NCBI GenBank assembly: GCA_021405315.1
Contig: QWIH01000011.1
Location: forward strand, 1 to 64,000
DNA from: Leptolyngbya sp. PLA1
GTDB taxonomy: Bacteria > Planctomycetota > Phycisphaerae > Phycisphaerales > UBA1924
Reading direction: 5' to 3'
Length of the DNA: 64,000 bases
Below the pieces are notes generated by a model. The model ran no database searches. It was not told the origin of the DNA and saw only the letters and a program-made list of their open reading frames with translations. This document shows positions 17,410-64,000 of this stretch, piece after piece; position 1 is the first letter of the stretch; every line of letters begins with the position of its first letter. The translations under genes were made by a program, and so were the position numbers.

Positions 17410-18321
17410 ATGCCGAGGATGCCTCGACTCAACCAGGTGGGACCGACATTGACCGATCCGCGTCGGGGGCGCTGGCTGGCGGCTGTCGTGCTTCTCCGGT
17501 CCGCGATTGCCTTCGCGCAGCCCGCAGAAGGCGGGGCGGTGCCCGAGGACGAACCGGGGGAGGCCGCGGCGCCGGTCTCGCTCGAACTGGGTCTGGACGT
17601 CACGACGGCGTACTTCTACCACGGGTTCAACCAGGAGGACTGCGGGTTCATCGTGCAGCCTTCCGCCTCGCTGACCTTCAGGCTCTTTGAGAGCGAGGAT
17701 GTGCTCATCGAGGGTACGGTTGGCACCTGGAGCAGCCTGCACTCTCAGAAGACCGGGGCCGCGTCGCGCAGCGACCTGGGCGAGTGGTGGTACGAGGCGG
17801 ATGTGAGCGGCGGGCTTTCGCTCTCGGCCGGCCCGTTCTGCCTTTCGGCGACGTACTGCGTCTTCGCCAGCCCGAGCGACGCCTTCGCCACGCTCCAGGA
17901 GCTTGACCTGTCACTGGCATTGGATGACAGCGAGTTGCTGGGTGAGTGGGCGTTTCAGCCATTCGTGCTGATCGGCATCGAGACCGACGGGCAGGCGGCG
18001 GACGGCGACGAACTCGGCGTGTACGGCGAGATGGGTGTCGCACCCGGGCTGACGTTCGAGGTCGCGGGCACCGAGATGGAGGTGGCGTTCCCGCTGACCG
18101 TCGGCGTGAGCCTGCGCAAGTATTACCAGGATGACGGCGGCGAGGACCAGTTCTTCGGCCATGCCAGCGCGGGTGCCACGGCTTCGGTGCCGCTGGGCGA
18201 CTCCGGCTGCGTCGCGACCGCCGGAATCAGCGTGCTGCTCCTTGGCGATCACGCGGCGGCGGCGAACGACGGTGACGACGCGCAGGTCGTGGGCACCCTC
18301 GGGTTGCGATGGACGTTCTGA
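17410..18321 (+). CDS. Putative outer-membrane beta-barrel protein
   Basis: This 303-residue protein has an N-terminal signal region (hydrophobic RWLAAVVLLRSAIAFAQ, cleavage after AFA). The rest is made of alternating strands such as SLELGLDVTTAYFYHGF, LIEGTVGTWSSLH and ALDDSELLGEWAFQPF. It ends in GLRWTF; a C-terminal aromatic is the usual BAM recognition signal. It resembles the planctomycete proteins annotated as TorF-like or 'hypothetical' barrels. Substrate is unknown. GGAG precedes the ATG. It stands alone between the signalling cluster and a convergent gene 6 bases away. Confidence 0.7.
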   Translation: MPRMPRLNQVGPTLTDPRRGRWLAAVVLLRSAIAFAQPAEGGAVPEDEPGEAAAPVSLELGLDVTTAYFYHGFNQEDCGFIVQPSASLTFRLFESEDVLIEGTVGTWSSLHSQKTGAASRSDLGEWWYEADVSGGLSLSAGPFCLSATYCVFASPSDAFATLQELDLSLALDDSELLGEWAFQPFVLIGIETDGQAADGDELGVYGEMGVAPGLTFEVAGTEMEVAFPLTVGVSLRKYYQDDGGEDQFFGHASAGATASVPLGDSGCVATAGISVLLLGDHAAAANDGDDAQVVGTLGLRWTF

Positions 18322-47769: not shown

Positions 47770-50250
47770 ATGACGGCGCACGATCACAAGGACACCGCTG
47801 CGGGCTCGCTCGGCACGCACGCAGCGAGAAGTGGCACGACCAGCACCAGGCGTGTCGACCTTCCGATCGAGGGAATGTCGTGCGCCTCCTGCGGAAGCCG
47901 GATCCAGAAGCACCTGAGCAGGCAGCCCGGCGTCGAGTCCGCGGGCGTGAACTTCGCCACGAAGGTGGCGACGGTGAGGTACAACCCGGCGGCGACCCAC
48001 CCCGAGAAGCTTGCCGAGGCCGTGAGCGACCTCGGGTACAGGGCGATTCTGCCACCTCACGCAGAGGAGCCCCGCCAGCCTCCGTCGGGCCTCCCGCCCG
48101 GGGAGGCCGGGGGCAGCCGCGGGGCGATGCACGTAGCGCAGGGGTACGTGAGCCGGTCGGGTGCGGCCGCCGGGCATGCAAACCCAGCGTCCGTCGGTGG
48201 CGCCGATCACGCCTCCCACATGAGCGTGGGGGAAGCTGACGAGAAGCGGCTGCTGGTCAAGATCGTCGCGGGCGCGGCTCTCTCGCTCCCGGTGCTGGTC
48301 ATCGCGATGTCACACGGGCAGGTTAGAGCATTCAACGTGCACTGGATCAACTGGCTCCAGCTTGCGCTGACAACGCCGGTTGTGCTCTGGTGCGGTTGGC
48401 CGTTCTTCCGCTCTGCCTGGAAGGGTCTGCGGCACCTGAGCGCGAACATGGACACGCTTGTGGCGATGGGCACGGGCTCGGCGTACCTCTACTCGCTCGC
48501 CGCAACGGCATGGCCGAGGTTCTTCGAAGCCGCGACGGGGGGCGGCTCGCACACGGCGGAGCCCATGCGCGGGGCGTCAACGGTGCCCGTGTACTTCGAG
48601 GCTGCCGCCGTCATCATCGTGCTTATTCTGCTCGGGAAGTACCTCGAAGCCCGGGCCACCGGCAGAACCACCGCGGCGATCCGGCGGCTGATCGGGCTCC
48701 AGGCCAGGACCGCCCGGGTTGTCCGCGAGGGCGCGGAGCACGACATCCCCATCGAGCTCGTGGTCGCCGGCGACCGGGTGCTCGTCCGCCCCGGCGAGAA
48801 AATCCCCGTGGATGGCATCGTCGAGAGCGGGCAGTCGGCGGTGGATGAGTCGATGCTCACGGGCGAGAGCGTGCCCGTTGAAAAGTACCCCGGCGCCCGC
48901 GCCTACGGGGCCACCATGAACACCACGGGAGCCCTCCGGCTGGTGACGACGCGGACGGGGGCGGACTCCGCCCTGCAGCAGATCGTTCGGCTGGTGCAGG
49001 AGGCCCAAGGGAGCAAGGCACCGATCGCGCGATTGGCCGACAGGATCAGCGGCGTGTTCGTCCCCGTGGTCATCGCGGTGGCCGCCGCGACCTTTGTCTT
49101 CTGGTGGTTCCTGGCGCCCGCGGACTCACGCCTGAGCATGGCCCTGGTCACGTCGGTCTCGGTGCTCATCATCGCGTGCCCGTGCGCCCTCGGATTGGCG
49201 ACCCCAACGGCGATCATGGTCGGGACCGGGCGCGGCGCCGAGAAGGGCATCCTCATCAGGGGCGGCGAGGCGCTCGAGACCGCGCACAAGCTCACCACCA
49301 TCGTGCTCGACAAGACCGGCACCATCACGCACGGCAAGCCCGCGGTGACGGACATTGTGACGAAGGCGGGGAGTCCGACCGAAGCGCATGAACTGCTGAG
49401 ACTCGCCGCGTCCGCGGAGCAGCACAGCGAACACCCGCTCGCCGCCGCGATCGTCCGCGAGGCCCTCGCCCGGAACATGAAGTTGGCAGTGCCCTCGGCA
49501 TTCCGGGCGCTGGTGGGTCTTGGCGTCGAAGCCACCGTGGATGGATCGCAGGTCCTCATCGGCACACCGTCGCTCCTCGGAGAACGCGGGGTCGTTATGG
49601 CGCTCGGGGGCAGGGCGGCCGAACTGGCGGCGCTGGGCCGCACCCCGATCTTCGTCGCGATCGATGGACGTGAGGCGGGCATCGTGGCGGTCGCGGACAC
49701 TGTGCGGGAGGAATCCGGGAGCGCCATCGCGACGATGCGCCGGCTAGGGCTGCGCGTGGTGATGCTGACCGGCGACAACCGCCGCACCGCGGAGGCGGTG
49801 GCGTCCCAGGTCGGTGTCGATGAGGTCTTCGCAGAGGTGCTCCCCCGGGACAAGGCCGAGAGGGTGAAGTCGCTCCGGTCCGAGGGGCACATCGTCGGCA
49901 TGGTCGGAGACGGCATCAACGATGCGCCCGCGCTCGCGCAGGCGGATGTCGGGCTGGCGGTGGGCTCGGGCACGGACGTGGCCATCGAGTCCGCGGACAT
50001 CACGCTCATGCGCAGTGACCTCCGCGCCGTCCCGCAGGCGATTGCACTCTCGCGGGCGACCATGCGGACGATCCGCCAGAATCTCTTCTGGGCCTTCATC
50101 TACAACGTGGTGGGAATACCGGTTGCGGCAGGCGTCCTCTTCCCGTTCACGGGCTGGTTGCTGTCGCCGATCATCGCGAGTGCCGCGATGGCGTTCAGCA
50201 GTGTGAGCGTGGTGCTCAACAGCCTGCGGCTGCGGGGGCTCAGGCTCTAG
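47770..50250 (+). CDS. copA: Copper-exporting P1B-type ATPase CopA
   Basis: An 826-residue Cu(I) ATPase. It has one N-terminal HMA domain with GMSCASCGS (C38, C41), a His/Gly-rich linker, eight predicted helices and the transport motif C470-P471-C472. The phosphorylation site is D514 in [11 protein letters not shown], and the nucleotide domain includes the HP motif SEHPLAAAI and [12 protein letters not shown]. The P1B-1 helices end with [14 protein letters not shown] and [16 protein letters not shown], diagnostic for Cu(I). GGAAGGAAG precedes the ATG. It closes the CsoR-controlled operon and pumps Cu(I) from the cytoplasm. Confidence 0.96.
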
Positions 50251-50927: not shown

Positions 50928-51740
50928 TCACGAGCGACCCTCTGCAAGGCGGTAGCCGACACCCGGCTCGGTGATGATGAACCGCGGCTGGGCCGGATCG
51001 ACCTCCAGCTTCTTCCGTAGTTCGCCCGCGTACACGCGGAGGTATTGCACATCGCTGACGTGCTGCGGGCCCCAGACCTCTCTCAGGATCATCTGGTGTG
51101 TCAGCACCTTGCCCGCGTGCTTGACCAGGAACGCCAGGAGTTTGAACTCCATGGGCGTCAGGCGGACCTCGCGACGTCCGGTGCCATCGGAGCCGATAGC
51201 CTGGTCGGTCACAGAAACCAGTCGGGCGGCAAGGTCCACTCGCAGCGTGCGGCCGTCGGCGGTGCATTCATACGGCACCACCTCTGGGCTCCCGCCTGGC
51301 CCCCGACCCATGTCCGAGTTCACATGGCGCAAGGCAACCCGCAGGCGGGCGAGCAATTCGCCGACGCCGAAGGGCTTGGTGAGATAGTCGTCGGCTCCCG
51401 CGTCGAGGGCGGCCACCTTGTCGCTCTCCTGCCCGCGCGCGGAGAGGACGACAATCGGTGTGCGAGACTCTTTGCGGATTGCGCGGGTGACGTTCAGGCC
51501 GTCGCCGTCGGGAAGGCCAAGGTCCAGCAGAATGACATCCGGATAGGTGGTCATCGCCAGCAGCGTCCCTTCGCGGGCGGTGCCAGCCTCCTTGACGCGG
51601 TAGTGGTTGGCTTCGAGCGTGGCGCGGAGGAAGCGGCGGATCGGTTCCTCGTCCTCGATGATGAGCACGAGCGGCATGTGCGCTGGCGGCGTGGCCTGGA
51701 GGGACTGCGCGCGTGTGGGACTTGGAGTAGAGTCGCTCAT
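50928..51740 (-). CDS. kdpE: KdpE response regulator
   Basis: An OmpR/PhoB-family activator of the kdp operon, 270 residues. The receiver has DE at the acidic pocket (LIIEDEEPI), phospho-Asp in VILLDLGLPDGDG and Lys in LTKPFGVGEL. The C-terminal winged helix has VRLTPMEFKLLAFLVKHAGK, a recognition helix near VSDVQYLRVYAGELRKKLE and the wing FIITEPGVGYRLAEG. An extra loop of about 35 residues (145-180) lies between the domains. Its start overlaps kdpD by ATGA. It is the last gene of the operon. Confidence 0.94.
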   Translation of the reverse strand: MSDSTPSPTRAQSLQATPPAHMPLVLIIEDEEPIRRFLRATLEANHYRVKEAGTAREGTLLAMTTYPDVILLDLGLPDGDGLNVTRAIRKESRTPIVVLSARGQESDKVAALDAGADDYLTKPFGVGELLARLRVALRHVNSDMGRGPGGSPEVVPYECTADGRTLRVDLAARLVSVTDQAIGSDGTGRREVRLTPMEFKLLAFLVKHAGKVLTHQMILREVWGPQHVSDVQYLRVYAGELRKKLEVDPAQPRFIITEPGVGYRLAEGRS

Positions 51741-54700
51741 GACGCACTCCTACCGGTCTGTCCACCGTCGATCGGGGCCGGCAGGGTGGTCACACCCCGA
51801 TTCTCTGCCGCGTCCTCCTCGGCGGGAAGCGCGGGCTGCGGATGCTCGACCGGAAGCGAGAAGAGGAACGCGACACCCCTCGGGGTGTTGGGCTCCGCCC
51901 AGATGCGACCGCCGTGCACGCGAACTATCCCCTCGCAGATCGTCAGACCCAAGCCCATTCCCGTCGATGTCGTCGCGTGAGAGTGCGAGCCCGCGGTCTG
52001 GCTGGCGCGGCCTCGATAGAAGCGCTCGAACACCTTCGATGACTCATCATCGGCCAGTCCGGCACCCTCGTCCCAGACCTTGATGACGACATTCGTCTCG
52101 CTGGTCCACGCTGATATCCCGAGTGGCGTACCGGGCTCTGTGTAGCGGAGCGCGTTCTCTACGAGATTGTGGACGACCTGCGGGAGCATGGCGTTGTCCA
52201 CGCGGATCATGGGCAGGTCGTTGGGCATTTGGACGCGGAAGGGCCGCGTGGCGAGAGCACCACGGTGGCGTGAGAGCCCGGCCCCCACGATCTCCTCAAC
52301 CGTCGTCCACTCTCGTCGTAGGTCAACGGACCCGGACTCCAACCGAGTGGCGAAGACGAGGTTGGCGATGATGTCATTGAGGCGGGACGACTCGTCAACG
52401 ATCGTTCGGAGGAGAGCTGCTCGCGTCGGCTCGTCGATGCCACCCCCTACGCCCTCGGCTCCTTCCGACTTCTGGGAGGCATCCGCCTGCTGGAGCGTGC
52501 TTGCGGCACCGGTAATGCTTGCGAGTGGGGTGCGGAGGTCGTGGGACACGGAACTCAGCAGCGCGCTGCGGAGCCGCTCACGCTCGGCGTTGATGCGGGC
52601 CGCCTGCTCCGACTCGGCGAGCGTGACGCGCTCCAACGCCGAAGCGGCTTGCGACGCGATCGACTCAAGCGTGGCGAGCTGGGTCGCGTCGAAGGCTTCG
52701 ACGCCGTTGTTCACCTGGGCCCGCACACCGAGCACTCCAACCCGGCCTCGGCTCCCAACCAGGGGCTGGTAACGGCCCTGGGCCGAGGGGAGCGTTGAGG
52801 TGCCGCGCCCAGCGGGGTTCCCGTGGTCGAAGGCCCACTGAGCCACCCCGCGCTCGCGCGCCGGCTCCTCACCTTCGCCGGAGTACCAGTCCGGACCGCC
52901 TAGACCCGCGGCGGCGGCAACATCAAGGCCCATCGGCCGAGATGAGGCACCGACTCCCGCTCCCGGCGTGGGAGTACACACGACTGCATCGGCCTGGAGC
53001 AGGTCGTGCGTATGCCGTGCAACGATCGCGGCCACGCCGCGGGCGTCGCGTGCAACGGCGAGCTCGCGCGAGAGTGCGTGCTGGGCGGCCGTCGCCCGCT
53101 CGCGGGACCAGGCGCGGAGCCGCTGCTCTCGGGCACGGGCCGCAAGCGTTCCGACGACGACACCCACGGCGAGCATGACGCAGAACGTGACGAGATAGCC
53201 GGTGTCGTTGATGTTGAGCGTGAAGCGCGGCTCGGTGAAGAAGTAGTTGAAGGCCAGCACCGCCAGGATGCTGGCGAAGATTGCAGCCACACGGCCGAAC
53301 CACAGTGCGCTCACAACCACACCCGCGAGGAGGATCAGAGACTCCTCGGAGAGATCCGGGGGCCGAAAGAACGCAAGTCCGACGAGAGCGCACGCCGCGA
53401 CCACGCCCGCTGACGCCGCGAGTTCGCCGACAACGCGGGCGGGCGGCTTGCGGGTGCGAGCGTCGTTCTCGCCTGCGCGCCGTGCCGGGTGAGTCACGCC
53501 AGAAACTGACTCATCGCCGCGCACCACGTAGATGTCGATGTCGCCGCTCTCGCGGATGAGGTTGTCGATGAACGAACCGAAGAGGACCTCCCTCCACCGT
53601 GGCCGCTCAGTTTTACCGACGACGATCCTGCCGACGTTGCGTGATCGGGCGAAGGCGATGAGTTCGCGCGCTGCGTTCTCGCCCGCCACGGTGTGCGTTG
53701 TTCCCCCAAGCGACTCGGCCAGGCGCAGGTTCGCGTCCAGTCGCTCGCGGTTCGCCGCCGACAGGTTCGCCGTGCGAGGCGTCTCGACGTACACCGCGAT
53801 GAGATCGGCGTGCAGCCCCGCCGCCATGCGCTTGGCGGCACGTACCAACTTGCCCGACATCGGGCTCGGGCTCACCGCAACCACGATCCGCTCGCCCGCG
53901 GGCCAGACCGCGCGGATGCCCCGGTCCTGCTTGTAGCGGCGCATGTCCGAATCGACCCATGCCGCCGTGCGTCGCAGTGCAAGCTCTCGCAATGCAAGCA
54001 AGTTGCCCTTTCGGAAGAACCCGTCGCTGGGGTCGACCGCGCGGGCCGCGTTGTCGCCCATGTAGACCTTGCCCGCCTTCAGCCGCTCGTGCAGCGCATC
54101 GGGCGGCAGGTCCACCAGTTCGATCTCGTCGGCCTCATCGAAGACGCGGTCGGGCACGGTCTCGCTGACCTTCACGCCTGTGATATGCGCGACGACATCG
54201 TTGATCGATTCCAGGTGCTGCACGTTGAGCGTGGTGTAGACGTTGACACCCGCCGCGAGGCAGGCCTCGACATCCTGCCAGCGCTTGGCACTTCCGGAGG
54301 GCGAGCCCGGCGCGTTGCTGTGGGCCAGTTCATCGACGAGCAGGATGTCGGGCCGCCGGCGGATCGCGGCGTCCACATCGAACTCGTGCAGCGTGGTGGT
54401 AGTCCCCGCGCCGCTTGCGCCCCCGTACTCGATCCTTACCCGCGGGATGATGTCCAGCCCCAGCAGCATCTGCTCGGTCTCGGCCCGCCCGTGCGTCTCG
54501 ACCACACCGACGGCGACATCCACGCCCTGCGCCGCCATCCGCTGCGCCGCCGCGAGCATGGCGTAGGTCTTGCCGACGCCCGGCGCCATGCCGAAGAAGA
54601 TCTTCAACTGGCCTCGTGGCGGCGCGGCGCCCGCCACCCACGCTGCCTCGGTGATGGCCCGCTGGTCACGCTTGAACCGATCCAAGACTTCATCGGTCGA

Positions 54701-54745
54701 CTGCGGCATCGGATTGGGCGCCATGGGTGGCATGGGGAAGTCCAT
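51737..54745 (-). CDS. kdpD: KdpD osmosensitive K+ sensor kinase
   Basis: The 1002-residue sensor has an N-terminal KdpD domain with Walker A FFGMAPGVGKT (K59) and VDELAHSNAPG. A Usp-like domain follows (VVAVSPSPMSGKLVRAAKRM, GRIVVGKTERPRWRE), then four close membrane helices (about 445-545) and a GAF-like region. HisKA has SSVSHDLRTPLASI and HATPase has DEGAGL and GMGLGLTICEGIV. It senses K+ limitation or turgor and controls KdpE. It overlaps kdpE by four bases and follows kdpC by 21 bases. Length slightly exceeds the 894 of E. coli, through linkers. Confidence 0.96.
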   Translation of the reverse strand: MDFPMPPMAPNPMPQSTDEVLDRFKRDQRAITEAAWVAGAAPPRGQLKIFFGMAPGVGKTYAMLAAAQRMAAQGVDVAVGVVETHGRAETEQMLLGLDIIPRVRIEYGGASGAGTTTTLHEFDVDAAIRRRPDILLVDELAHSNAPGSPSGSAKRWQDVEACLAAGVNVYTTLNVQHLESINDVVAHITGVKVSETVPDRVFDEADEIELVDLPPDALHERLKAGKVYMGDNAARAVDPSDGFFRKGNLLALRELALRRTAAWVDSDMRRYKQDRGIRAVWPAGERIVVAVSPSPMSGKLVRAAKRMAAGLHADLIAVYVETPRTANLSAANRERLDANLRLAESLGGTTHTVAGENAARELIAFARSRNVGRIVVGKTERPRWREVLFGSFIDNLIRESGDIDIYVVRGDESVSGVTHPARRAGENDARTRKPPARVVGELAASAGVVAACALVGLAFFRPPDLSEESLILLAGVVVSALWFGRVAAIFASILAVLAFNYFFTEPRFTLNINDTGYLVTFCVMLAVGVVVGTLAARAREQRLRAWSRERATAAQHALSRELAVARDARGVAAIVARHTHDLLQADAVVCTPTPGAGVGASSRPMGLDVAAAAGLGGPDWYSGEGEEPARERGVAQWAFDHGNPAGRGTSTLPSAQGRYQPLVGSRGRVGVLGVRAQVNNGVEAFDATQLATLESIASQAASALERVTLAESEQAARINAERERLRSALLSSVSHDLRTPLASITGAASTLQQADASQKSEGAEGVGGGIDEPTRAALLRTIVDESSRLNDIIANLVFATRLESGSVDLRREWTTVEEIVGAGLSRHRGALATRPFRVQMPNDLPMIRVDNAMLPQVVHNLVENALRYTEPGTPLGISAWTSETNVVIKVWDEGAGLADDESSKVFERFYRGRASQTAGSHSHATTSTGMGLGLTICEGIVRVHGGRIWAEPNTPRGVAFLFSLPVEHPQPALPAEEDAAENRGVTTLPAPIDGGQTGRSAS

Positions 54746-54766
54746 CGTACTGAGCCGCTACCGCCA

Positions 54767-55447
54767 TCAGCGGGGGACGTTACAGAGAGCCTGATTCAGG
54801 CGCAGCACACTTACCACGGGCTCACCGAGCACGCCGAGAGCGCGGCCTTGGGTGTGCTGGTGGACGAGGTCGCGGACTGAGGCTTCTGACAAGCCGCGGG
54901 CCTTGGCGATGCGGGACACCTGGTACTCCGCCGCGGCGGGGGAGATGTGCGGGTCCAGGCCGCTCGCGGAAGAGGTCACGAGTTCGATGGGAACTGGGGT
55001 GCTGCGTGACGTTGAACCGGGGGCGACGCGCACGATGCCGACGCTCGCGTCCGCCGCATCAAGGGCGGCGAGACGGGCCTTGATGTTGTCGAGCAGAGCA
55101 GGGTTGGTCGGGGCGAGGTTGCTGCCGCTGGAGCCGGTGCCTTTGTCGAGGTTCAGGGCTGTGTAGGGCACGGGGCCGGTGGCGCTGGGGCGGCCCCAGA
55201 ACCACTTAGCGAGCGCGGGTGCGGCGGTCGCATCGGATGTGCCGAACTCCTGCCCGATGAGCGACGAGCCGACGGGCTTGCCGTCCCGCTCACCAGCGGC
55301 GTCGGTGATGATCGAGCCGTTGGCCTTGTCGGCGAAGGCGACCTGCGCGATGACGGTGATGACCAGCGGGTAGACCACGCCGGTGATGATCGACAGGAGC
55401 ACGAAGAGCGCGAGCGCGGGGCGGAGGATCGTGGGGCGGGTGAGCAT
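54767..55447 (-). CDS. kdpC: KdpC, K+-transporting ATPase subunit C
   Basis: A 226-residue single-span periplasmic subunit that stabilises the KdpFABC complex. The N-terminal helix is [20 protein letters not shown]. Conserved segments include [18 protein letters not shown] and [10 protein letters not shown], and the C-terminal region has [20 protein letters not shown] and [17 protein letters not shown]. It starts three bases after the kdpB stop. Family length is 190-200, so a slightly long linker is present. Confidence 0.96.
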
Positions 55448-55450
55448 GGT

Positions 55451-57613
55451 TCAGCTCCAGAACGGAAGCAGGTTCACGAGCACGTCGATGAGCTTGATCC
55501 CGACGAACGGCACAAGGAGGCCGCCAAGGCCGTAGACGAGCAGGTTGTGCCCGAGGAGGCGGCTGGCCTCGACGGGGCGGTACTTCACGCCGCGGAGGGC
55601 CAGGGGGATGAGCACGACGATGATGAGGGCGTTGAAGATGACGGATGAGAGGATCGCGGTCGCGGGGTTGAGCCGCATGATGTTGAGCGCGCCGAGCGAG
55701 GGGTAGGTGCTCATGAACGCCGCGGGGATGATGGCGAAGTACTTGGCGACGTCGTTGGCGATGCTGAAGGTGGTGAGCGAGCCGCGAGTCATGAGCAGTT
55801 GCTTGCCGATGCGGACGATCTCGATGAGCTTGGTGGGGTTGGAATCCAGGTCCACCATGTTCCCCGCTTCCTTGGCGGCCTGCGTGCCGCTGTTCATGGC
55901 GACCGCGACATCGGCCTGTGCGAGCGCGGGGGCGTCGTTGGTGCCGTCGCCGGTCATGGCGACGAGCCGCCCGCCCTGCTGATACTCGCGGATGAGCTTC
56001 AGTTTGGCCTCGGGCGTGGCCTGGGCGAGGAAGTCATCAACGCCCGCCTCGGCGGCGATCGCGGCGGCAGTCACGGGGTTGTCGCCGGTGATCATCACCG
56101 TCTTGATGCCCATGCGGCGGAGTTCCGCGAAGCGCTCGGCGATGCCGCCCTTGACGATGTCCTTGAGTTCGATCACGCCGAGCGTCTTCCCCTTGCCGTC
56201 GGCGACGACCAGCGCCGTGCTGCCGCGTTTGGAGACTTCGTTCACGATCTCGCGGGCCTGCACGCTCGGCGTGCCGCCCATGCGAGAGACGTACGCATCG
56301 ATCGCGTCGGCGGACCCCTTGCGGATCTGTCGACCCAGCGGGTACTGCGCCGAGACGGGCAGGTCAACGCCGCTCATGCGCGTGTTCGCGGTGAAGGGCA
56401 CGAACGACGCGGGCGTTCCATCGAATCCGAGCGCGTGCATGTCGCGCTCGCGGATGTTGTACTTCTGCTTGGCGAGGACGACGATGGAGCGCCCCTCGGG
56501 CGTTTCGTCGGCGAGCGATGACAACTGCGCCGCGTCGGCGAGCTGCTCGGCGGTTGTGCCATGTACCGGGTAGAACGCCGACGCCATGCGGTTGCCGAAG
56601 GTGATCGTGCCGGTCTTGTCCAGCAGCAGGACATCCACATCCCCCGCCGCTTCGACCGCCCGGCCGCTGGTTGCAATCACATTGGCCTGCACCAGGCGGT
56701 CCATGCCTGCGATGCGGATCGCCGCCAGCAGCCCGCCGATGGTCGTCGGGATGAGGCACACCAGCAGCGCGACGAGAACCGTCACCGTGATGGGTGTTGC
56801 CTCGGAGGCCGCCTCTGCCGCCTTGGACTGCATCACCGCTGAGATCGAGTACGGCAGGAGCGTGGCGCACGCGAGCAGGAAGGTGATGGTGAGAGCGGCG
56901 AGCAGAATGTCGAGCGCGATCTCGTTGGGCGTCTTCTGCCGCTTGGCCCCCTCGACCATCGCGATCATCCGGTCGAGGAACGACGAGCCGGGGTCCGCCG
57001 CGATCCGCACGATGAGCCAGTCGCTGAGCACCAGCGTGCCCCCAACGACGCTGGAACGGTCGCCGCCCGCTTCGCGGATGACGGGCGCTGATTCGCCGGT
57101 GACGGCGGACTCGTTCACGCTCGCCACGCCCTCGATCACCTCGCCGTCGCCCGGAACCGTGTCACCGGCCTGCACGAGCACGATGTCACCCTTGCGGAGC
57201 GTGGCGCCCGACACCAGTGCGGTCCTGCACCCGCCGGGGCCGCGGCCTTCGACTCGCGGTCCTTCAACCTTCTTTGCCTGAACATCCCTCTTGCTCTTCC
57301 GCAGGCTCGCGGCCTGGGCCTTACCCCTCCCCTCGGCCATCGCCTCGGCGAAGTTCGCAAACAGCACCGTGAACCACAGCCACAGCGCGATCACGAGTAC
57401 GAGGGCCGGCGAGTAGCCGCCTGCTTCACCCATGCCGGCGAACCCCGCGACCGCCAGCAGTGTCGTCAGCACGCTTACGACCCACACCACGAACATGACG
57501 GGGTTGCGCAGTTGCACCCGCGGGTCGAGCTTGGCCAGCGCCGAGCCGATGGCGGGACGAACAGTAGCGGGGCTGAAGATCGATGAGGTGGCGTGAGCGG
57601 GCGAACTAGGCAT
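55451..57613 (-). CDS. kdpB: KdpB, catalytic P-type ATPase subunit
   Basis: The ATP-hydrolysing subunit of the high-affinity K+ pump. The 720 residues carry [14 protein letters not shown] (actuator), the phosphorylation site D332 in [63 protein letters not shown] and the characteristic Kdp helix [20 protein letters not shown] 57613 was preferred over a TTG four codons upstream. 24 bases separate it from kdpA and 3 from kdpC. Confidence 0.97.
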
Positions 57614-57637
57614 GGCTGGTTCCAATGAACAACGGGC

Positions 57638-59515
57638 TTACTTGCCGACAAGCTGGAGGTGCTCAACCACTGGTCCCAGGGCGAGCGCGGGCACGAAGGT
57701 GAGTGCGCCGACGATGACGACCACCGCGACAAGCATGAGCACAAAGACCGGGGTGTGCGTGGGCAGCGTGCCGCTGGTTGTCGCACTGACACGCTTGGCT
57801 GCGAGCGATCCGGCGACGGCGAGCACGGGCACGATGATCCAGAACCGGCTGAACCACATCGCCAGCCCCAGCGCGATGTTGTAGAAGGGCGTGTTGGCCG
57901 TCAGCCCGGCGAAAGCCGACCCGTTGTTGTTCCCCGCGCTGCTGAAGGCGTACAGGATCTGGCTGAATCCGTGGGGGCCCGGGTTGCTCGTCGTGTACGC
58001 GTCGGGCGTGAGGACCGCGACGGCGGTGCCGACGAGCACCAAGGCGCACGGCACAAGCACGCAGACCATCGCCATCTTCATCTCGAACGGCTCGATCTTC
58101 TTGCCCAAGTACTCCGGCGCGCGGCCGACCATCAGCCCCGCGACGAAGACCGCGACGATGACGAACATGAGCATGCCGTAGAGGCCTGAGCCCACGCCGC
58201 CAAAGACCACCTCGCCGAGCTGCATCAGCCACATCGGGATGAGCCCGCCCAGCGGCGTGAACGAATCGTGCATTGCGTTGACGCTGCCGTTGCTCGCGGC
58301 GGTGGTGGCGGTCGCCCAGAGCGCGGCGTTGGCGACGCCGAGGCGGGCCTCCTTGCCCTCCATGTTGCCCCCGAGCTCGCCGAGGTTCGCCGTGGTGTCT
58401 ACGCCGAGTGCCGCGACGGTCGGGTTTCCCCGCGCCTCGAGGGCGTACGTGGCTGCGAGAAGCGGCACGAAGATCACCAGCATCGCTGCGAGCACGGCCC
58501 AGCCCTGCCGCCGGTCGCAGACCATCTCGCCAAATGTCCAGCAGAGCGCGGCGGGGATCAGCAGAATGGCCAGCACCTGCAGGAAGTTTGAAAGCGCCGT
58601 CGGGTTCTCCAGGGGGTGGGCGGAGTTGACATTGAAGAACCCACCACCATTGGTGCCCAGTTGCTTGATGGCGATCTGAGACGCGGCCGGGCCGAGGGGG
58701 ATGGACTGTTCCGTCACCTCGACCGTCCTGATCTGGTCGCTGCCGTCGGCGTTCTTGATCACCTCCCCCGCATCGTTCTTGACCGGCTCGCTGTACGACA
58801 GCGGCACGATCAGCGCGACCCTCGCTGGACCGCGGAACGTCTGCACCACGCCCTGGCTCACCAGCGCCACCGCGAGGATGACCGACAACGGCACCAGGAT
58901 GTACAGCGTGCTGCGCGTGAGGTCGGCCCAGCAGTTGCCGATCGTGCCCGCACTCTTGCGTGACAGCCCGCGAATCAGGGCCGCCAGCACGGCGATGCCG
59001 GTCGCGGCGCTCAGAAAGTTCTGCACACCCAGCCCGAGCATCTGCGTCAAGTACGACATGGTCGTCTCGCCGCCGTAGCCCTGCCAGTTGGTGTTGGTGG
59101 CGAAGGAGATCGCGGTGTTGAACGCGGACTTGGCCTCGACCGGCCCCAGCCCCGCCGGGTTCGCGGGCAGAACGCTCTGCAACCGCTGCAGTCCATACAC
59201 GGCGATGAAGCCGAGGGCGTTGAAGACGAGAATCCCCGCCGCATAGGGCTTCCAGCCTGTCTCGACGGGCCGCTTCTCGGCGTCGGCTTGCACGCCGCCG
59301 AGGGAATAGATGCCGCGCTCCAACCAGCCCAGCGCTCGACCAAGCCCAAGCGGCGCTTCGCCCGGATTCCCTTCGAGCACGCGAGCCATGTACCAGCCCA
59401 GCGGCTTGACGAAAGCTAGCAGCACCGCAAGGTAGATCACCAGTTGCAGCACACCCGGGCCGGTGATCGCTGCGAGCGTTGCTGCAGGAACCAGAGCAGT
59501 CGCGGGGTCACTCAT
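57638..59515 (-). CDS. kdpA: KdpA, K+-channel-like subunit
   Basis: Superfamily-of-K+-transporter subunit with about ten helices and four selectivity-loop segments (e.g. ISFATNTNWQGYGGE, KQLGTNGGGFFNVNSAHPLE, NAMHDSFTPLGGL, SAGNNNGSAFAGL). At 625 residues it is longer than the 557 of E. coli, with extra sequence in the 260-320 loop and after helix one. ATG 59515 overlaps the kdpF stop (ATGA) and has GGAG upstream. The open frame further 5' is not used. Confidence 0.96.
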   Translation of the reverse strand: MSDPATALVPAATLAAITGPGVLQLVIYLAVLLAFVKPLGWYMARVLEGNPGEAPLGLGRALGWLERGIYSLGGVQADAEKRPVETGWKPYAAGILVFNALGFIAVYGLQRLQSVLPANPAGLGPVEAKSAFNTAISFATNTNWQGYGGETTMSYLTQMLGLGVQNFLSAATGIAVLAALIRGLSRKSAGTIGNCWADLTRSTLYILVPLSVILAVALVSQGVVQTFRGPARVALIVPLSYSEPVKNDAGEVIKNADGSDQIRTVEVTEQSIPLGPAASQIAIKQLGTNGGGFFNVNSAHPLENPTALSNFLQVLAILLIPAALCWTFGEMVCDRRQGWAVLAAMLVIFVPLLAATYALEARGNPTVAALGVDTTANLGELGGNMEGKEARLGVANAALWATATTAASNGSVNAMHDSFTPLGGLIPMWLMQLGEVVFGGVGSGLYGMLMFVIVAVFVAGLMVGRAPEYLGKKIEPFEMKMAMVCVLVPCALVLVGTAVAVLTPDAYTTSNPGPHGFSQILYAFSSAGNNNGSAFAGLTANTPFYNIALGLAMWFSRFWIIVPVLAVAGSLAAKRVSATTSGTLPTHTPVFVLMLVAVVVIVGALTFVPALALGPVVEHLQLVGK

Positions 59516-59613
59516 TGGAACCACTCCGGTTTGAGCAGGGCGACCAACAGATAGACGAGCAGTGCGGCACCGACGATCGCCGCAAGCGTGTAGATCACGG
59601 TCTGTGGTGTCAT
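59512..59613 (-). CDS. kdpF: KdpF small membrane subunit
   Basis: A 33-residue single-helix peptide: MTPQTVIYTLAAIVGAALL is followed by VYLLVALLKPEWFQ. The pattern (short polar lead, one helix, then L-x-x-E-x-F near the end) is that of KdpF, which stabilises the Kdp complex. ATGA overlap with kdpA downstream and with a 53-residue frame upstream. I read it directly from the reverse strand. Confidence 0.9.
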   Translation of the reverse strand: MTPQTVIYTLAAIVGAALLVYLLVALLKPEWFQ

Positions 59614-59771
59614 CGGCTGTTCTCCCTGCGCTGAGCAACCACGTCGCGAGAGCCAGGTTGTTCCGGTCGGTGCGAGAGGTCAGGCGGCCGCAGCCACTCG
59701 CACACGCGCACCAAGCCGAACGTGGCGAGCAGGCAGCCGACAAAGAACGCGATGGGTATGAGGTCGTTCAT
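59610..59771 (-). CDS. Tiny membrane protein at the head of the kdp operon
   Basis: A 53-residue frame: MNDLIPIAFFVGCLLATFGL, then VRVCEWLRP and a polar, Arg-rich tail. One membrane helix, then a C-E-W-L motif at its cytoplasmic end. Its stop overlaps the kdpF start (ATGA), so translation is coupled. Small frames with a similar 'helix + (V/R)xCE/D-L' pattern occur before kdpF in some other bacteria, by my recollection; function unknown. It is the first gene of the operon, 110 bases from the phased repeats. Confidence 0.7.
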   Translation of the reverse strand: MNDLIPIAFFVGCLLATFGLVRVCEWLRPPDLSHRPEQPGSRDVVAQRRENSR

Positions 59772-59881
59772 GGAGTGGGCCCCGGACGGGAGACGGACCG
59801 GCGATGCGCTGCGATCATGGCATGAGCATCGCCATGCAGCGGCCCGTTGTCGCTCAGGCGGGCATAAGCGCGGCGCTCATT

Positions 59882-59903
59882 CGCATAAAGACCGCATAAA
59901 GAC
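59882..59903. promoter_or_regulatory. Tandem 11-bp direct repeat upstream of kdp (candidate KdpE site)
   Basis: CGCATAAAGAC occurs twice with no gap; on the minus strand this reads GTCTTTATGCG twice. OmpR/PhoB-family regulators such as KdpE bind tandem direct repeats with 11-bp phasing, so this is a strong candidate. It lies 111 bases upstream of the first kdp gene. Confidence 0.5.
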
Positions 59904-59942
59904 GACCGGCGTTACGCGACTGGGGTTTCGATGCGCCGCCGT

Positions 59943-59983
59943 GCGTTGATGCAGCGTTGATACGGCAAGACCTTGCGTTGATG
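59943..59983. promoter_or_regulatory. Phased GCGTTGAT direct repeats upstream of kdp
   Basis: GCGTTGAT starts at 59943, 59954 and 59975, that is with 11- and 21-base spacing (one and two helical turns). It could be a second, distal regulator site for kdp, or the 5' region of the small rightward frame at 60092. The 320 bases between the first kdp gene and 60092 hold no other gene. Confidence 0.4.
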
Positions 59984-60091
59984 CCGTCTTGAGCGACATC
60001 GCCGCGGAGCCCTCCACACTCACCTCGCCATGCCTGGACGCGGGTGCTCATCGCAGCGTCGACCCACGGCAGGCGGCTTGGAGATCACGTC

Positions 60092-60289
60092 ATGAGCGAT
60101 TCAGCGGGCTGGTGCGTGGCGGCGCTTCTGGTGTGTGCGGGCCTGGCCGCCGATGGCTGCCTCGCATGGACGTTCATCCGCGATTGGGCGCGGTGCGGAT
60201 TCAGAGGTCGCCGCGGAGGGGCCGAGGGACTCACGCCAGTGGACTGTCGAACAGGCTCGGCAGACCGTCGACAACCCCCGGGCTTGTAA
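60092..60289 (+). CDS. Small putative membrane protein (weak)
   Basis: A 65-residue frame starting MSDSAGWCVAALLVCAGLAA, with one hydrophobic segment then a Trp/Arg/Gly-rich tail. GGAG lies 10 bases before the ATG. It ends inside the CCCCCGGG hairpin repeat, which weakens the call. No family recognised. Confidence 0.3.
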   Translation: MSDSAGWCVAALLVCAGLAADGCLAWTFIRDWARCGFRGRRGGAEGLTPVDCRTGSADRRQPPGL

Positions 60290-60297
60290 CCCGGGGG
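60275..60297. repeat. REP-like hairpin, copy 1
   Basis: CCCCCGGG - CTTGTAA - CCCGGGGG is a perfect 8-bp stem, flanked by CAA and TCATGCAA. A related element with the same flanks occurs at 62388-62415, so this looks like an extragenic palindromic repeat family. It might also serve as a terminator; no T-tract. Confidence 0.5.
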
Positions 60298-60776
60298 TCA
60301 TGCAAGTTGCGGATGGGGGATGGTGTGACGACATGCTCGCCAGAGCCCCAGAGACCCAACACCCCGACGCCATCTGCCGGCAAGTTCCTCCGATCTGCTG
60401 TGGATTGCCAGCACGGTGATGTCGTGCGAGGGGCCTGTGGACCCGTACCCGCGGGATCTGTCGGGGTGCTGTTCAGGGACGTTGCGGCCAACGTACTTCG
60501 ATGGACGATCGACGCGAGGCCCGCCACGGATTTGGGCACCAGGAGGCCGAGATGTTTGGCCGCGACTTGTCCCCGGCGCTGAGCGACAGACACGACCGTT
60601 TGATTCCGGCGCCGACGACAGCGGGCGACGGGCGGATTCTCGGACGACTCCACCCGCAAAACATTCGGTGGAACGCGCCCAAGGCAGGCCAACTCGGAGG
60701 ATCTTCGGATAGAGTATCCGAGTCGCGTTCGTGAGTTCGAGAGCAAAGACCCTCGCTTCGCCGGAGAGAGACAATC
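60298..60776. other. Intergenic region before the exported choice-of-anchor-type protein
   Basis: About 480 bases with no gene I can support; frames on either strand lack coding character or starts. Its right end holds a palindrome that may control the next gene. Confidence 0.55.
60705..60721. promoter_or_regulatory. Palindrome TCGGATA-GAG-TATCCGA
   Basis: A perfect 7-N3-7 inverted repeat, 55 bases before the ATG of the exported protein. It shares GGATA/TATCC arms with the palindrome ahead of nnrS (there with N4). Candidate operator. Confidence 0.4.
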
Positions 60777-61478
60777 ATGAATCGTCGCACTGTTGTTTGG
60801 CTCACCGTCGCACTGGCTGTGCAGACGTGGGGAGGGGCTGCGTCCGCCGAGGTTTTCACTCAGACACAGACCGTGTCCAACATGGAGCTGAGCCCGTGGA
60901 TCACGGCTTCTGATGGGGGGCAGCACACCTTTGCGCAGTGGAACCCAACGGTCGACTTCGCACGGTTTGACACGTCGCTGGGCTCGCTGACGGGGGTGAC
61001 GATCACCGTGCAGACCGGCATGGGAAACCTTCTGCAGCTCATCGGCGAGAATCCACAGCACAATCCCACGGCGTTCGGTTACTGCGCCTACTCGCTGGAA
61101 TGGTCGGCGTCGATCACGCCGCCCGGTACGACGGTGGTCGCCACCGACCACCGCTTGGCAGATGAGACTTTCGGCGCGACGTTGGTTCGTCACGGGACGT
61201 CGGTCTTCTCTCGCCCGCCTTCGGGCCCCTCGGGCCTGTCGACGTACAACGTCGACCCCGTCGATTTCTCGCTCTACTCCGGACCCGGGGCAGCCTCATT
61301 TGCGCTCTCGTTCGATGCAGATTTCAACTGCACGGAACTCTTCAACTGCAGCGCGGCGGTCCGCTTGACATCACGAGCGACCCTCACCGTGGACTACGAG
61401 TTCACCCCCGTTCCCGCGCCGGGACCGGTCGCGGCACTTGTCATCGGTGGCCTGCTTTCTGCGCGTCGTCGGCGCTGA
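60777..61478 (+). CDS. Exported choice-of-anchor E-type protein with PEP-CTERM-like tail
   Basis: A 233-residue secreted protein: signal VVWLTVALAVQTWGGAASA, then a beta-rich domain (FTQTQTVSNMELSPW, FDTSLGSLTGVTITVQTG, CAYSLEWSASITPPGTT) that resembles the choice-of-anchor E domain. It ends PVPAPGPVAALVIGGLL then SARRRR: a Pro-rich motif, one helix and an Arg cluster, i.e. a PEP-CTERM-like exosortase-sorted tail typical of Phycisphaerae. Two Cys pairs may form disulfides. GGAGAG precedes the ATG. No exosortase gene is in the window. Confidence 0.82.
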   Translation: MNRRTVVWLTVALAVQTWGGAASAEVFTQTQTVSNMELSPWITASDGGQHTFAQWNPTVDFARFDTSLGSLTGVTITVQTGMGNLLQLIGENPQHNPTAFGYCAYSLEWSASITPPGTTVVATDHRLADETFGATLVRHGTSVFSRPPSGPSGLSTYNVDPVDFSLYSGPGAASFALSFDADFNCTELFNCSAAVRLTSRATLTVDYEFTPVPAPGPVAALVIGGLLSARRRR

Positions 61479-61950
61479 CATCGCGCCGCGGATCATCGAA
61501 GTTCTACTCCTGCGCTCTCGCCCACACGCGACCGCTTCTTGTTTCTCAAGCGACCCGCCCGACACGCCGTGGACCGGTTCGGATCGACGGCGGGTGATCT
61601 CGCGCACAATCGCCCCGCGTCTGCGGCGGCCGACGTAGTGCTGTGCGTGGGTGGTCGATCCACGCTTGATCAGGGTGGCCAGTTGCTCACCTGGGCCGGG
61701 AAGCCCCGGAGGAGTCGAGTCCCGAGCGGCGGTGCTCCGAGGTAGCGTTGGCCTTGACCACCAACGCAAAGGGGCCTCGCGGTTCACGCAAGACCCTTTG
61801 GCTTCGACAGTTGAGGGCGTTGGGCAATCTCACGAACCCGATTCCAGAGCCGCAGAGACACGGCGAGCGGATGAACCACTCCGGCGGGTGCAATGTCGAA
61901 CTGGGTGGTTCCGAGCAAGAGCCGGATACGCTCCCGTGGGAGCGTTCCTG
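61479..61950. other. Structured intergenic region with three hairpins
   Basis: 472 bases without a gene. Hairpins: GCGTGG/CCACGC (61645-61665), GCGTTGG/CCAACGC (61745-61767) and CAAAGGG/CCCTTTG (61767-61800, 20-base loop). The last two share one base and could be a tandem terminator or part of a small RNA. A fourth hairpin overlaps the RBS of the next gene. Confidence 0.5.
61928..61945 (+). promoter_or_regulatory. Hairpin covering the RBS of the next gene
   Basis: ACGCTCCC-GT-GGGAGCGT is a perfect 8-bp palindrome whose right arm contains GGGAG, the only Shine-Dalgarno-like sequence before ATG 61951. It could hide the RBS or be a repressor site. Confidence 0.45.
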
Positions 61951-62322
61951 ATGCGCGCAATGATCTACCTCTCGCTGACTCTCAACCTCGTGGTTCTCAT
62001 CCCGGTCTGCGGCGGGCTGCTTGTGAATGCCGCGTGGACCGACGGCGCGTACGGAGGACCATCAGCAGCAAGGCAGATCCTTCTGTCTGTCTACCTCTCG
62101 ATCGGGCTGCTGTCGGTGCTGCTGCTGATCCGGCCGGATCCTCGAATGGTTGCCACCCTGCTGCTGCTGCAGGTGGTTTACAAGATGGCGACACCGTTGT
62201 TGGTCGGCACTTGGCAGAACCCGGTCGTTCTGAGCAACATCGGCATCAGCGTGGTGCACGCGGTGACTCTCGCCCTCATCTGGCGAGCGACCAACTCGGC
62301 GTCCATCCAGCCGGGCGGTTAG
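61951..62322 (+). CDS. Small four-helix membrane protein
   Basis: A 123-residue integral membrane protein with about four helices (IYLSLTLNLVVLIPVCGGLL, ILLSVYLSIGLLSVLLLI, MVATLLLLQVVYKMATPLLV, ISVVHAVTLALIWRATN). No charged catalytic motif and no family I recognise. The upstream extension of the frame lacks coding character, so ATG 61951 is taken. An inverted repeat hides its RBS. Neighbours give no clue; it is followed by repeats. Confidence 0.7.
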   Translation: MRAMIYLSLTLNLVVLIPVCGGLLVNAAWTDGAYGGPSAARQILLSVYLSIGLLSVLLLIRPDPRMVATLLLLQVVYKMATPLLVGTWQNPVVLSNIGISVVHAVTLALIWRATNSASIQPGG

Positions 62323-62387
62323 GCGGCTCGACCCTTGTTTCTCGGCTGACCCCGGACAGATCCTCGAAGGCGGCCCACAAAAGCAAC

Positions 62388-62415
62388 AACCCCCGAGTCT
62401 TGCGACCCGGGGGTT
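62388..62415. repeat. REP-like hairpin, copy 2
   Basis: AACCCCCG-A-GTC, loop TTGC, GAC-C-CGGGGGTT: eight plus three paired bases with one mismatch. The flanks (CAACCCCCG, CGGGGGTTATGCGA) match copy 1 at 60275. It lies 65 bases after a stop codon and 8 bases before the duplicated block. It could also act as a terminator. Confidence 0.55.
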
Positions 62416-62423
62416 ATGCGAAT

Positions 62424-62662
62424 AGTGGGCGCGTAGCGGTAACCCGACGCGATAGAGATACCAACATAGACATAGCGGCGGCGCGACACATCGTGGGGGT
62501 TCGATCCATCGGATGACCGGCGGTCGGGAGGCCGCCGAGACCGGCTTTAGGCGTTCCAGGGGGGGTCTCGGGCCGGGATGCCCCGTCGAACGATTATGGA
62601 GCGCGTAACCGGGAGGTCGCGACACGAACCGATGCACAACACCGCTCCGCCGCGTCGCGTTT
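62424..62662. repeat. Direct repeat, copy 1 (about 240 bp)
   Basis: It begins AGTGGGCGCGTAGCGG and ends near the CGCGTT at 62662. The first 118 bases differ from copy 2 at only four positions. The middle has diverged, and the GGAGCGCGTAACCGGGAGGT part is again identical. No protein-coding frame stands out. Part of the 1148-base gene-poor stretch 62323-63470. Confidence 0.75.
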
Positions 62663-62820
62663 CCGCCCGGGCCATGATGAGCGCCGACGGTCATGCTGCC
62701 TGTTTTCCAGACGAGAGCGCGCACAGCCCGTCCGGCGATTGCATAGAGAGGATGAAGAGACCCGCGACTTTCCACCCGACCAGATACCTGCGGTCAGGGT
62801 GATGAGGCTGTTTCGCGCCA

Positions 62821-63069
62821 AGTGGGCGCGTAGCGGTAACCCGACGCGATAGAGAGACCAACATAGACATAGCGGTGGCGCGACACATCGTGGGGGTTCG
62901 ATCCATCGGATGAGCAGCGGTCGGGAGGCCGCCGAGACCCGCCGAGACCGCTTGTGAGCGCCCCAGAGGGGGCATCGGGCGGGGATGCCCACTCTGGCGA
63001 TTATGGAGCGCGTAACCGGGAGGTCGCGCTCCGAACCGTTGCACAAGACCATTCCGTCGCGCCGCGTTG
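62821..63069. repeat. Direct repeat, copy 2 (about 250 bp)
   Basis: Same orientation as copy 1, about 397 bases further on. It is 10 bases longer because of a small insertion (GACCCGCCGAGACCGC). The duplicated block contains a GGGGGTTCGATCC stretch that imitates a tRNA T-arm, but no cloverleaf can be drawn. The 158 bases between copies are unique. Confidence 0.75.
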
Positions 63070-63093
63070 CTCCCCGGTTATGGCCGGACCGCT

Positions 63094-63348
63094 CGTGATT
63101 CGCAGAATGGCCCCCATCACACCCGCCGGGGAGAGGGTGCCTGTGTCCAGAACCAGCTCGTGGGGTCGGGCGTCGCGCACCGACGCGTGATTTATCCGCA
63201 TCGAAATGCCGATGTCCCGAGATGCACCTTCTTCAAGGTTGGACACTCTCTCGCGCAGAGCGTCTTCGGCGGCGTGCAGGACGATCAGGCACACACGCTT
63301 GCTCGGACATTGGGCACGGACTTCGGTCAAAACCCCGTGGATTTGTCG
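63094..63348 (-). pseudogene. Kinase-like fragment (possible decayed gene)
   Basis: Part of a frame open from 63564 to 63001. Residues 73-157 read like the C-terminal half of a P-loop small-molecule kinase: RVCLIVLHAAEDALRERVSN, then ARPHELVLDTGTLSPAGVM and GAILRIT. This resembles the lid and closing strand of cytidylate- or chloramphenicol-kinase-type proteins. No Walker A lies upstream, and the frame runs into the ATPase gene, so it looks like a truncated remnant. The resemblance is from memory of family patterns and is weak. Confidence 0.3.
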
Positions 63349-63470
63349 CCGCTGAAGGGGTCGACCAGGATTACGGGAGCAGATCCGGAGCGAAGAAAGC
63401 CGGTGGGGAGCTGAGAGGGAATGCGTGAGTAGTTTCCGGTGCTCCGCCTGGTTGGTCCAGTCCACCGAGA

Positions 63471-64000
63471 TCACCGTCTGGCGAAGCGTGTCACACGAAG
63501 GGTCCTCAAGCCGTTCCCCACCACAAGCAGACTCGCCCCGACATCGGCGACCACTGCCATCCACATCGTGGCCACCCCTCCCACCGCCAGGCCGAAGAAG
63601 ATCACCTTGATGCCGAGGGCCAGCGCGATGTTCTGGGTCAGGATCGCCCCGGTGCGGCGAGACAGCAGCACGAACTCCGGCAGACCGCGCAGGTCGTCCT
63701 GCATCAGGGCAACGTCAGCGGTTTCAAGGGCCGTGTCGGTGCCCGCCGCGCCCATCGCAAAGCCGATGGTGCTCCTGGCGAGGGCCGGGGCGTCGTTGAC
63801 GCCGTCGCCGACCATGCCGACGGTGTCCCCGTGCCCCTTGAGTAAGCGTTCGATCTCGGCGAGTTTGTCCTCGGGGAGCATGCCGCCGCGGGCTTCGTCG
63901 ATGCCGACCGCTTTGGCGATGGCTGCGGCGGTCGTCTGGTTGTCGCCCGAGAGCATAAGCGTCTTGATGCCCAGATTGTGCAGTAACCTGATTGCAGCAA
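63471..64000 (-). CDS. Zn/Cd-type P1B ATPase, C-terminal part (cut by window end)
   Basis: Frame open to the window edge, so the N-terminus lies beyond. The visible 175 residues hold KTLMLSGDNQTTAAAIAKAVGIDE, LPEDKLAEIERLL, the hinge GMVGDGVNDAPALA and two terminal helices with ALALGIKVIFFGLAVGG, MWMAVVADVGASLLVVGNGL and RTLR. The closing helix with Lys in the penultimate helix and AD-G-ASLLVV is typical of P1B-2 (Zn2+/Cd2+/Pb2+) ATPases such as ZntA/CadA, unlike the CopA in this window. The regulator is not seen. Confidence 0.88.
   Translation of the reverse strand, partial: AAIRLLHNLGIKTLMLSGDNQTTAAAIAKAVGIDEARGGMLPEDKLAEIERLLKGHGDTVGMVGDGVNDAPALARSTIGFAMGAAGTDTALETADVALMQDDLRGLPEFVLLSRRTGAILTQNIALALGIKVIFFGLAVGGVATMWMAVVADVGASLLVVGNGLRTLRVTRFARR

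Follow-up and report, generated by a model that had tools for sequence, protein, structure and literature searches.

Divergently oriented predicted KdpE operators between the kdp operon and a neighboring gene in Phycisphaerales

The kdp operon and the repeats in its upstream region

The window, which is the whole stretch of 64,000 nucleotides analyzed here, carries a kdp operon on the minus strand extending from 59771 to 50928 with the gene order ORF1, kdpF, kdpA, kdpB, kdpC, kdpD, and kdpE. Among 80 named loci, the closest relatives of its KdpA belong to Phycisphaerales metagenome assemblies. The genes were assigned as follows:

59610..59771, minus strand: ORF1, gene of a 53-aa membrane peptide ahead of kdpF
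59512..59613, minus strand: kdpF (PF09604, E = 6.6e-8)
57638..59515, minus strand: kdpA (PF03814, E = 1.8e-233)
55451..57610, minus strand: kdpB, between kdpA and kdpC (PF00122 and PF00702; start codon uncertain, the ORF list has TTG at 57625)
54767..55447, minus strand: kdpC (PF02669, E = 2.8e-64)
51737..54745, minus strand: kdpD, sensor kinase (PF02702, E = 7.8e-86; HisKA, HATPase_c, Usp)
50928..51740, minus strand: kdpE, response regulator and presumed ligand of both operator arms described below (E. coli KdpE 4kny, E = 2.3e-70)

ORF1 gave no match in Pfam and NCBIfam. A short ORF resembling it was picked by script in 20 further loci of the window's order, the pick in genome G146 resembling kdpF instead, and none was found in G084. 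Located between the operator and kdpF, ORF1 could encode an undescribed small Kdp subunit or a regulator. A search of positions 54000-64000 against Rfam at gathering score yielded 0 matches and hence no sign of a c-di-AMP or other riboswitch or known RNA upstream of kdp.

Additional features were observed in the window. Two P-type ATPase genes, of heavy-metal type by eye, flank the kdp cluster (47770-50250, plus strand; 63471-64000, minus strand). A 233-aa protein encoded at 60777-61478 on the plus strand has a PGPVAALVIGGLLSARRRR tail at its C-terminus, which we take to resemble a sorting signal, as well as an apparent signal peptide. At 62420-63030 on the plus strand, two similar stretches (gggcgcgtagcggtaacccgacgcgatagaga...) appear by eye to be directly repeated at a distance of about 400 bp.

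The original prediction had placed an exact 11-bp tandem pair and a three-copy set with 11/21 spacing upstream of kdp, and this was found exactly as described. CGCATAAAGAC occupies 59882-59892 and is repeated at 59893-59903; it is the sole exact adjacent 11-mer duplication within the 64-kb window. GCGTTGAT starts at 59943, 59954, and 59975 on the plus strand with spacings of 11 and 21; the whole window contains five copies on the plus strand and two on the minus strand. The range given for the repeats, 59882-59983, was incomplete, as further boxes lie at 59863-59868, 59852-59857, and 59989-59994. With these boxes included, the two sets read as follows:

59852..59900, minus strand: predicted KdpE-type operator arm facing kdp, with boxes TTTATG (59900-59895), TTTATG (59889-59884), CTTATG (59868-59863), and CTGAGC (59857-59852) at start-to-start distances of 11/21/11; matrix rank 1, genome-wide pattern match
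59946..59994, plus strand: predicted second arm in inverted orientation, directed toward the divergent gene, with boxes TTGATG (59946-59951), TTGATA (59957-59962), TTGATG (59978-59983), and TTGAGC (59989-59994) at distances of 11/21/11; matrix rank 2, genome-wide pattern match with 0 mismatches

Written out, the first set is TTTATG-N5-TTTATG-N15-CTTATG-N5-CTGAGC on the minus strand and the second TTGATG-N5-TTGATA-N15-TTGATG-N5-TTGAGC on the plus strand. Both share the 11/21/11 spacing and consist of like boxes, and they are located on opposite strands, directed away from one another. Each arm begins with two 6-bp direct repeats with TT first and 5 bp between them, the arrangement described for KdpE sites in the available text of PMC3264566, and box 3 (CTTATG or TTGATG) follows at the expected 21-bp step after box 2. 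In the window's order, box 4 (CTGAGC or TTGAGC) matches only 3-4 of the 6 half-site positions and overlaps with the -35 region; the second dimer per arm is therefore less certain than the first. The composite operator can be written as TTKAYR-N5-TTKAYR-N15-TTKAYR, followed 11 bp on by a degenerate fourth box. Judged by letters and spacing, the two repeat sets are one predicted composite operator in opposite orientations, and not two different sets.

The predicted operator lies upstream of kdp in a genome which also encodes the cognate KdpE. Helically phased repeats of the OmpR/PhoB type had been proposed to fit KdpE, and this part of the proposal is supported: the half-sites match those published for KdpE in E. 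coli and in M. smegmatis, and the KdpE of the window keeps three residues important for DNA binding in E. coli, namely R193, R200, and T215 (PMC3264566, as far as its text was available). They are identical in an alignment with 4kny, for which we mapped the E. coli numbering as chain position minus 2.

Distribution of the motif in kdp promoters and genomes

Loci containing kdpA were collected from the genomes of relatives and from the 80 named loci. Removal of near-duplicates reduced 154 loci to 131, with 128 being of adequate length. A comparison with relatives had been suggested as a check, and both the letters and the 11/21/32-bp spacing were found to recur. Within 700 bp ahead of kdpA, sense-strand pairs of TTKAYR showed frequency peaks at distances of 11, 21, and 32 bp. 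They occurred in 39, 25, and 28 of 68 Phycisphaerae loci, respectively (reversed control 0, 0, and 0), and in 33, 15, and 25 of the 80 named loci (reversed control 0, 2, and 1); these two sets share genomes, and duplicates were kept.

A four-box consensus score of ≥22/24 was obtained for 40 of the 128 non-redundant loci (reversed control 0) and of ≥20/24 for 73 (reversed control 4), leaving many kdp loci with no good four-box match. Among 78 named loci with ≥300 bp, 41 scored ≥20, 21 scored ≥22, and four scored 24, as compared to 3, 0, and 0 in the reversed control. The full score of 24/24 was found in two loci with Methylococcales-type names (L105, L108), one of Nitrospirae (L159), and one of Pirellula (L165); the Rokubacteria loci L111, L116, L127, and L148 reached 22. 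As a general by-product, four boxes would appear to be a common layout of kdp promoters, E. coli included.

For a matrix, 55 kdp promoters outside the window's order were then selected, whose sense operators had a consensus score of ≥20/24. The training loci were kept outside the order via kinship for some genomes and via name or duplication for the named ones; L135, L149, and L151 are named just as Planctomycetota, with the order unspecified. When all positions of both window strands were ranked, the minus arm scored 20.0, the plus arm 11.3, and the third position -6.4. At threshold 0, reversed controls passed in 36/128 (sense) and 9/128 (antisense) loci, mostly of lower GC, and in 0/22 loci of the order. 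Since the reversed controls also pass, sense counts at this threshold prove little outside the order, and matrix counts from AT-richer loci were not taken as proof.

Pattern searches were also carried out. The four-box pattern with ≤3 mismatches, its last box (TTGAKC) having been written after inspection of the window's order, detected only the two arms in the 3.4-Mb genome (92% complete), with 0 matches in the backward control. The three-box pattern with ≤2 mismatches detected both arms and one further site in this genome (control 1). With ≤1 mismatch, 20 matches were obtained in 61 relatives versus 26 in the backward control. Apparently, single three-box matches occur at chance level; hence the position of the matches, which in this genome lie back to back at kdp, is telling and not their number. 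A wide KdpE regulon did not emerge from the three- and four-box searches of the window's own genome, which gave one extra site, a three-box match with 2 mismatches.

The divergent gene and its promoter-like elements

Three further features belong to the region behind the arms:

60092..60289, plus strand: remnant of the divergent gene, comprising the N-terminal membrane leader (65 aa, then stop), barrel part missing
59825..59853, minus strand: candidate ORF1-kdp promoter with -35-like GCGACA (59853-59848), spacer of 17, and -10-like GATGCT (59830-59825)
59993..60020, plus strand: candidate divergent promoter with -35-like GCGACA (59993-59998) and -10-like CACACT (60015-60020)

Positions 60044-60199 matched positions 3-54 of 403 in profile A1 (E = 8.7e-13). 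The divergent gene is longer in relatives, where it starts behind the inverted arm and encodes, as a rule, a membrane leader (AELNLLRxFIxDWRE-like), a second hydrophobic stretch, and then a β-barrel. At least three kinds of barrel were found: one PF13557-like (G056, E = 7.2e-19), one with a weak PF09694 match (G083, E = 0.018), and a third recognized by eye in G063. From the Pfam match of one kind and the appearance of the others, these barrels look like outer-membrane proteins.

The presence of the divergent gene was scored by hand from translations. After duplicate removal, 18 of the 22 loci of the order contained a divergent leader/barrel gene; these include two cut by contig ends (G037, G526), the remnant of the window, and two with no clear leader (G447, G006). 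An inverted arm with a matrix score ≥0 was present in 17 of these 18 loci versus 0 of the four loci lacking the gene (G062, G084, G146, and G478); this association within one clade gave a Fisher value of 7e-4, uncorrected for kinship. The exception is G006, which has a divergent barrel and an inverted arm with TTGCGC boxes that scores -8.4. The sense arm scored ≥0 in 21/22 loci, G063 reaching -0.4 (reversed control 0/22).

In the window, the plus arm is still a perfect three-box match, which points to a recent loss of the barrel or to a remaining role; with the barrel part lost, the arm may be unused or a relic. An intact barrel gene encoding 303 aa with no leader was observed at 17410-18321 on the plus strand. 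It is related to the kdp-linked barrels (E = 1e-87), and its upstream region contains no KdpE operator at the matrix threshold.

Promoter-like elements were derived from conservation; a scan of 59600-60400 for sigma-70 consensus promoters and terminators gave 0 sites. Behind box 4 of the sense arms, G and A were found at offsets 0 and 1 in all 22 loci of the order and C at offset 2 in 21, furthermore A at offset 22 in all 22 and T at offset 26 in 21. A..[CG]T at offset 22 occurred in 21/22 sense tails, the pattern being nnGACn-N17-GANNCT, and TAnnnT was absent from offsets 0-59 of the 22 sense tails. The antisense tails (n = 17) had GAC at offset 0 in 11 cases and A..[CG]T at offset 21 or 22 in 16. 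Among 67 operators scoring ≥15 outside the order, TAnnnT started at a distance of 10 nt from box 4 in 37 cases and of 11 nt in another 10, compared with a mean background of 0.5 at offsets 14-39. These offsets suggest that in the window's order the distance from the operator to the -10 element is longer by about one helical turn and that a -35-like element was gained.

Outside the order, inverted arms were less frequent. An antisense score ≥0 was obtained for 29/128 loci, comprising 17/22 within the order and 12/106 outside (G320, L105, L106, L108, L123, L127, L128, L148, L150, L153, L154, and L163). Clear of their controls were the Rokubacteria loci L127 (14.2), L128 (38.3), and L148 (30.7), which are also part of the matrix training set via their sense operators. 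The divergent neighbor is kdpD in L127 (by eye) and a small ORF followed by a kdpE-like ORF in L128; the ORFs listed for L148 include one for a CBS-domain-like protein. L163 scored 14.0 with a control of -8.2. The other eight loci scored 0.7 to 11.2, and the reversed control was close or higher for several of them. L111 and L116 have a divergent kdpD (by eye) with no inverted arm at ≥18/24.

Barrel genes away from kdp served as a control. The 40 upstream stretches, a subset of the profile matches, were reduced by L212, which was too short (242 bp), and extended by the window paralogue and L198, giving 41; two of these reached matrix score 0 (2.8 and 1.3). The higher score belongs to an unlinked barrel gene in G062 (L203 from base 839, contig C36), where the boxes are rightly oriented and GACA is present, with TATCAT 20 nt after box 4. 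With these elements, the gene may be a moved KdpE target; the kdp operon of G062 has no divergent barrel. L205 (1.3) looks like chance. In G480 and G017, two genomes with a barrel in which KdpE was not matched at E ≤ 1e-30, no operator was detected at the barrel at the threshold. A separate observation was made in G468 (82% complete): its barrel gene (L199, contig C110) has two opposed arms scoring 25.0 and -0.4, no KdpA match was found, and a KdpE 91% identical to that of the window is encoded on another contig.

Motif, spacing, orientation, genome-wide uniqueness, conservation, the link to the divergent gene, and the promoter-like elements are the observations on hand. We consider it very probable that the region contains two divergent promoters which would be activated by KdpE from two back-to-back copies of one operator. 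The two sets are thus better read as two putative divergent operators, one per neighboring gene, and the earlier suggestion of two regulators or a high/low affinity array was not supported, as one matrix and one 11/21/11 spacing describe both sets on opposite strands.

The alternatives differ in how far they account for these data. According to the first, a single bipartite operator serves kdp alone; the inverted arm would act from upstream in activation or looping, and the divergent gene would be incidental. The intact plus arm of the window, where the divergent barrel is missing, would agree with this, as would the short distance of ≤60 nt between the arms in 15 of the 17 loci of the order having both. 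However, the two 55-nt models are separated by anything from 6 to 149 nt, which is easier to reconcile with two modules than with a fixed palindrome; moreover, the arm tracks the divergent gene within the order and is followed by its own -35/-10-like elements toward that gene. We regard this explanation as improbable. Even less credit is given to two regulators, i.e. KdpE acting at the CGCATAAAGAC set and a different regulator of the OmpR/PhoB type at the GCGTTGAT set. The half-sites do differ by one base (TTTATG versus TTGATG), but in relatives both boxes occur together in one sense operator (e.g. G062, G037, G086, and G447), the KdpE site of M. smegmatis is itself made of a TTG and a TTT box, and one matrix found both arms. 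Equally remote is a high/low affinity array of one regulator dedicated to kdp only: the plus arm indeed scores lower than the minus arm, yet the arms lie on opposite strands, each with three boxes, a degenerate fourth, and promoter-like elements of its own. Finally, chance or simple-sequence repeats with no function can practically be dismissed, because, short as the boxes are and frequent as single three-box matches with 1 mismatch are in the control, the four-box pattern is unique to these two places in the genome, the arms rank 1 and 2 by a matrix trained outside the order, and the spacing is conserved in kdp promoters.

Proposed regulation and comparison with known systems

Based on two divergent KdpE-activated promoters as the preferred reading, the following mechanism is proposed. 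Each operator copy would provide two tandem KdpE dimer sites: two 6-bp half-sites at a distance of 11 bp form the distal pair, and 21 bp on comes a proximal pair, whose degenerate last box abuts the -35-like element. Under K+ limitation, KdpD would phosphorylate KdpE; KdpE~P would then occupy the distal pair and also the proximal pair, of which the last box is weaker, and RNA polymerase would be recruited in each direction. Binding to the minus-strand arm should switch on ORF1-kdpFABC-kdpDE and binding to the inverted arm the divergent gene. In relatives, the leader-plus-β-barrel protein may help K+ or other solutes to cross the outer membrane, while in this genome the plus arm would drive only a short remnant or be a recent relic. 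KdpE occupancy, activation in both directions, and a role of the barrel in K+ supply are predicted from sequence.

Potassium starvation could therefore turn on both the pump and the adjacent gene, and a leader-plus-barrel gene beside kdp is predicted as a KdpE target in a little-studied bacterial order. The wider reading is that Phycisphaerales possess a two-membrane program for K+ starvation, in which one regulator turns on the pump of the inner membrane together with a barrel in the outer membrane, using back-to-back copies of an old KdpE operator with four half-sites; its proximal site would also exist in E. coli outside the published footprint, and the promoter of the order would have slid by one helical turn and gained a -35 element. 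To this reading as a whole we assign about even chances. The operator itself is ordinary in kind, being a predicted KdpE operator; what appears new within the literature searched is the divergent pair with a barrel-gene partner. Among the matches listed, covering titles and the beginnings of abstracts and leaving subscription papers mostly outside, there was no inverted KdpE operator, kdp-linked outer-membrane barrel, or four-box layout.

The arms resemble the pho box of PhoB, which consists of 11-bp direct repeats and whose proximal pair ends 10-11 bp before a TAnnnT, although its half-site letters differ from the KdpE-type boxes. Similarly, kdp operators outside the window's order mostly end 10-11 bp before TAnnnT. 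In the window's order, by contrast, about 21 bp separate box 4 from the -10-like element, and a -35-like GAC lies within this interval.

The kdpFABC promoter of E. coli is alike in having 6-bp direct repeats with TT first and 5 bp between them upstream of kdpF; its KdpE half-sites are TTTATA and TTTACA with an invariant TT, and the published footprint covers -72 to -50 (PMC3264566, in the text available). The K-12 locus (L171, 727000-732500) reached a four-box score of 22/24 with TTTATA-TTTACA-TTTGCG-TTTGCA, in which TTTGCG-N5-TTTGCA follows the known pair at a 21-bp step and is itself followed by TACCCT after 10 bp. By our count, the footprint corresponds approximately to the length of boxes 1-2, and boxes 3-4 lie outside it. 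Two KdpE dimer sites are predicted for the common kdp promoter; the proximal site would lie about 10 bp from the -10 element, in a position where an activator would contact RNA polymerase. E. coli differs in having a single arm only. Its best antisense four-box score was 17/24 versus 22 for the sense operator, and the divergent ybfA was rejected as a KdpE target on these grounds; the available part of PMC10003395 names ybfA solely in a citation on BasS/BasR. For E. coli, kdpFABC is on record as the sole KdpE target, to which one genome-wide study added three genes as direct targets, reporting 31 binding peaks (PMC7657598, in the text available).

In M. smegmatis, the minimal KdpE-binding site is the 22-bp sequence 5'-CCGTAAAGAAACCATCAAGGCC-3', and an 18-bp probe lacking most of the TTTACG box was not bound; in the text available, the authors describe the site as A-rich and lacking noticeable similarity to other known KdpE sites, and a single pair of boxes is reported, different from the window arms (PMC5401905). 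Its reverse complement reads, in our interpretation, GGCC-TTGATG-GTTTC-TTTACG-G. Hence a KdpE site defined by experiment combines both kinds of box, TTG and TTT, in the form TTGATG-N5-TTTACG. Once read on the other strand, the site reported as unlike others fits the same motif as the arms of the window.
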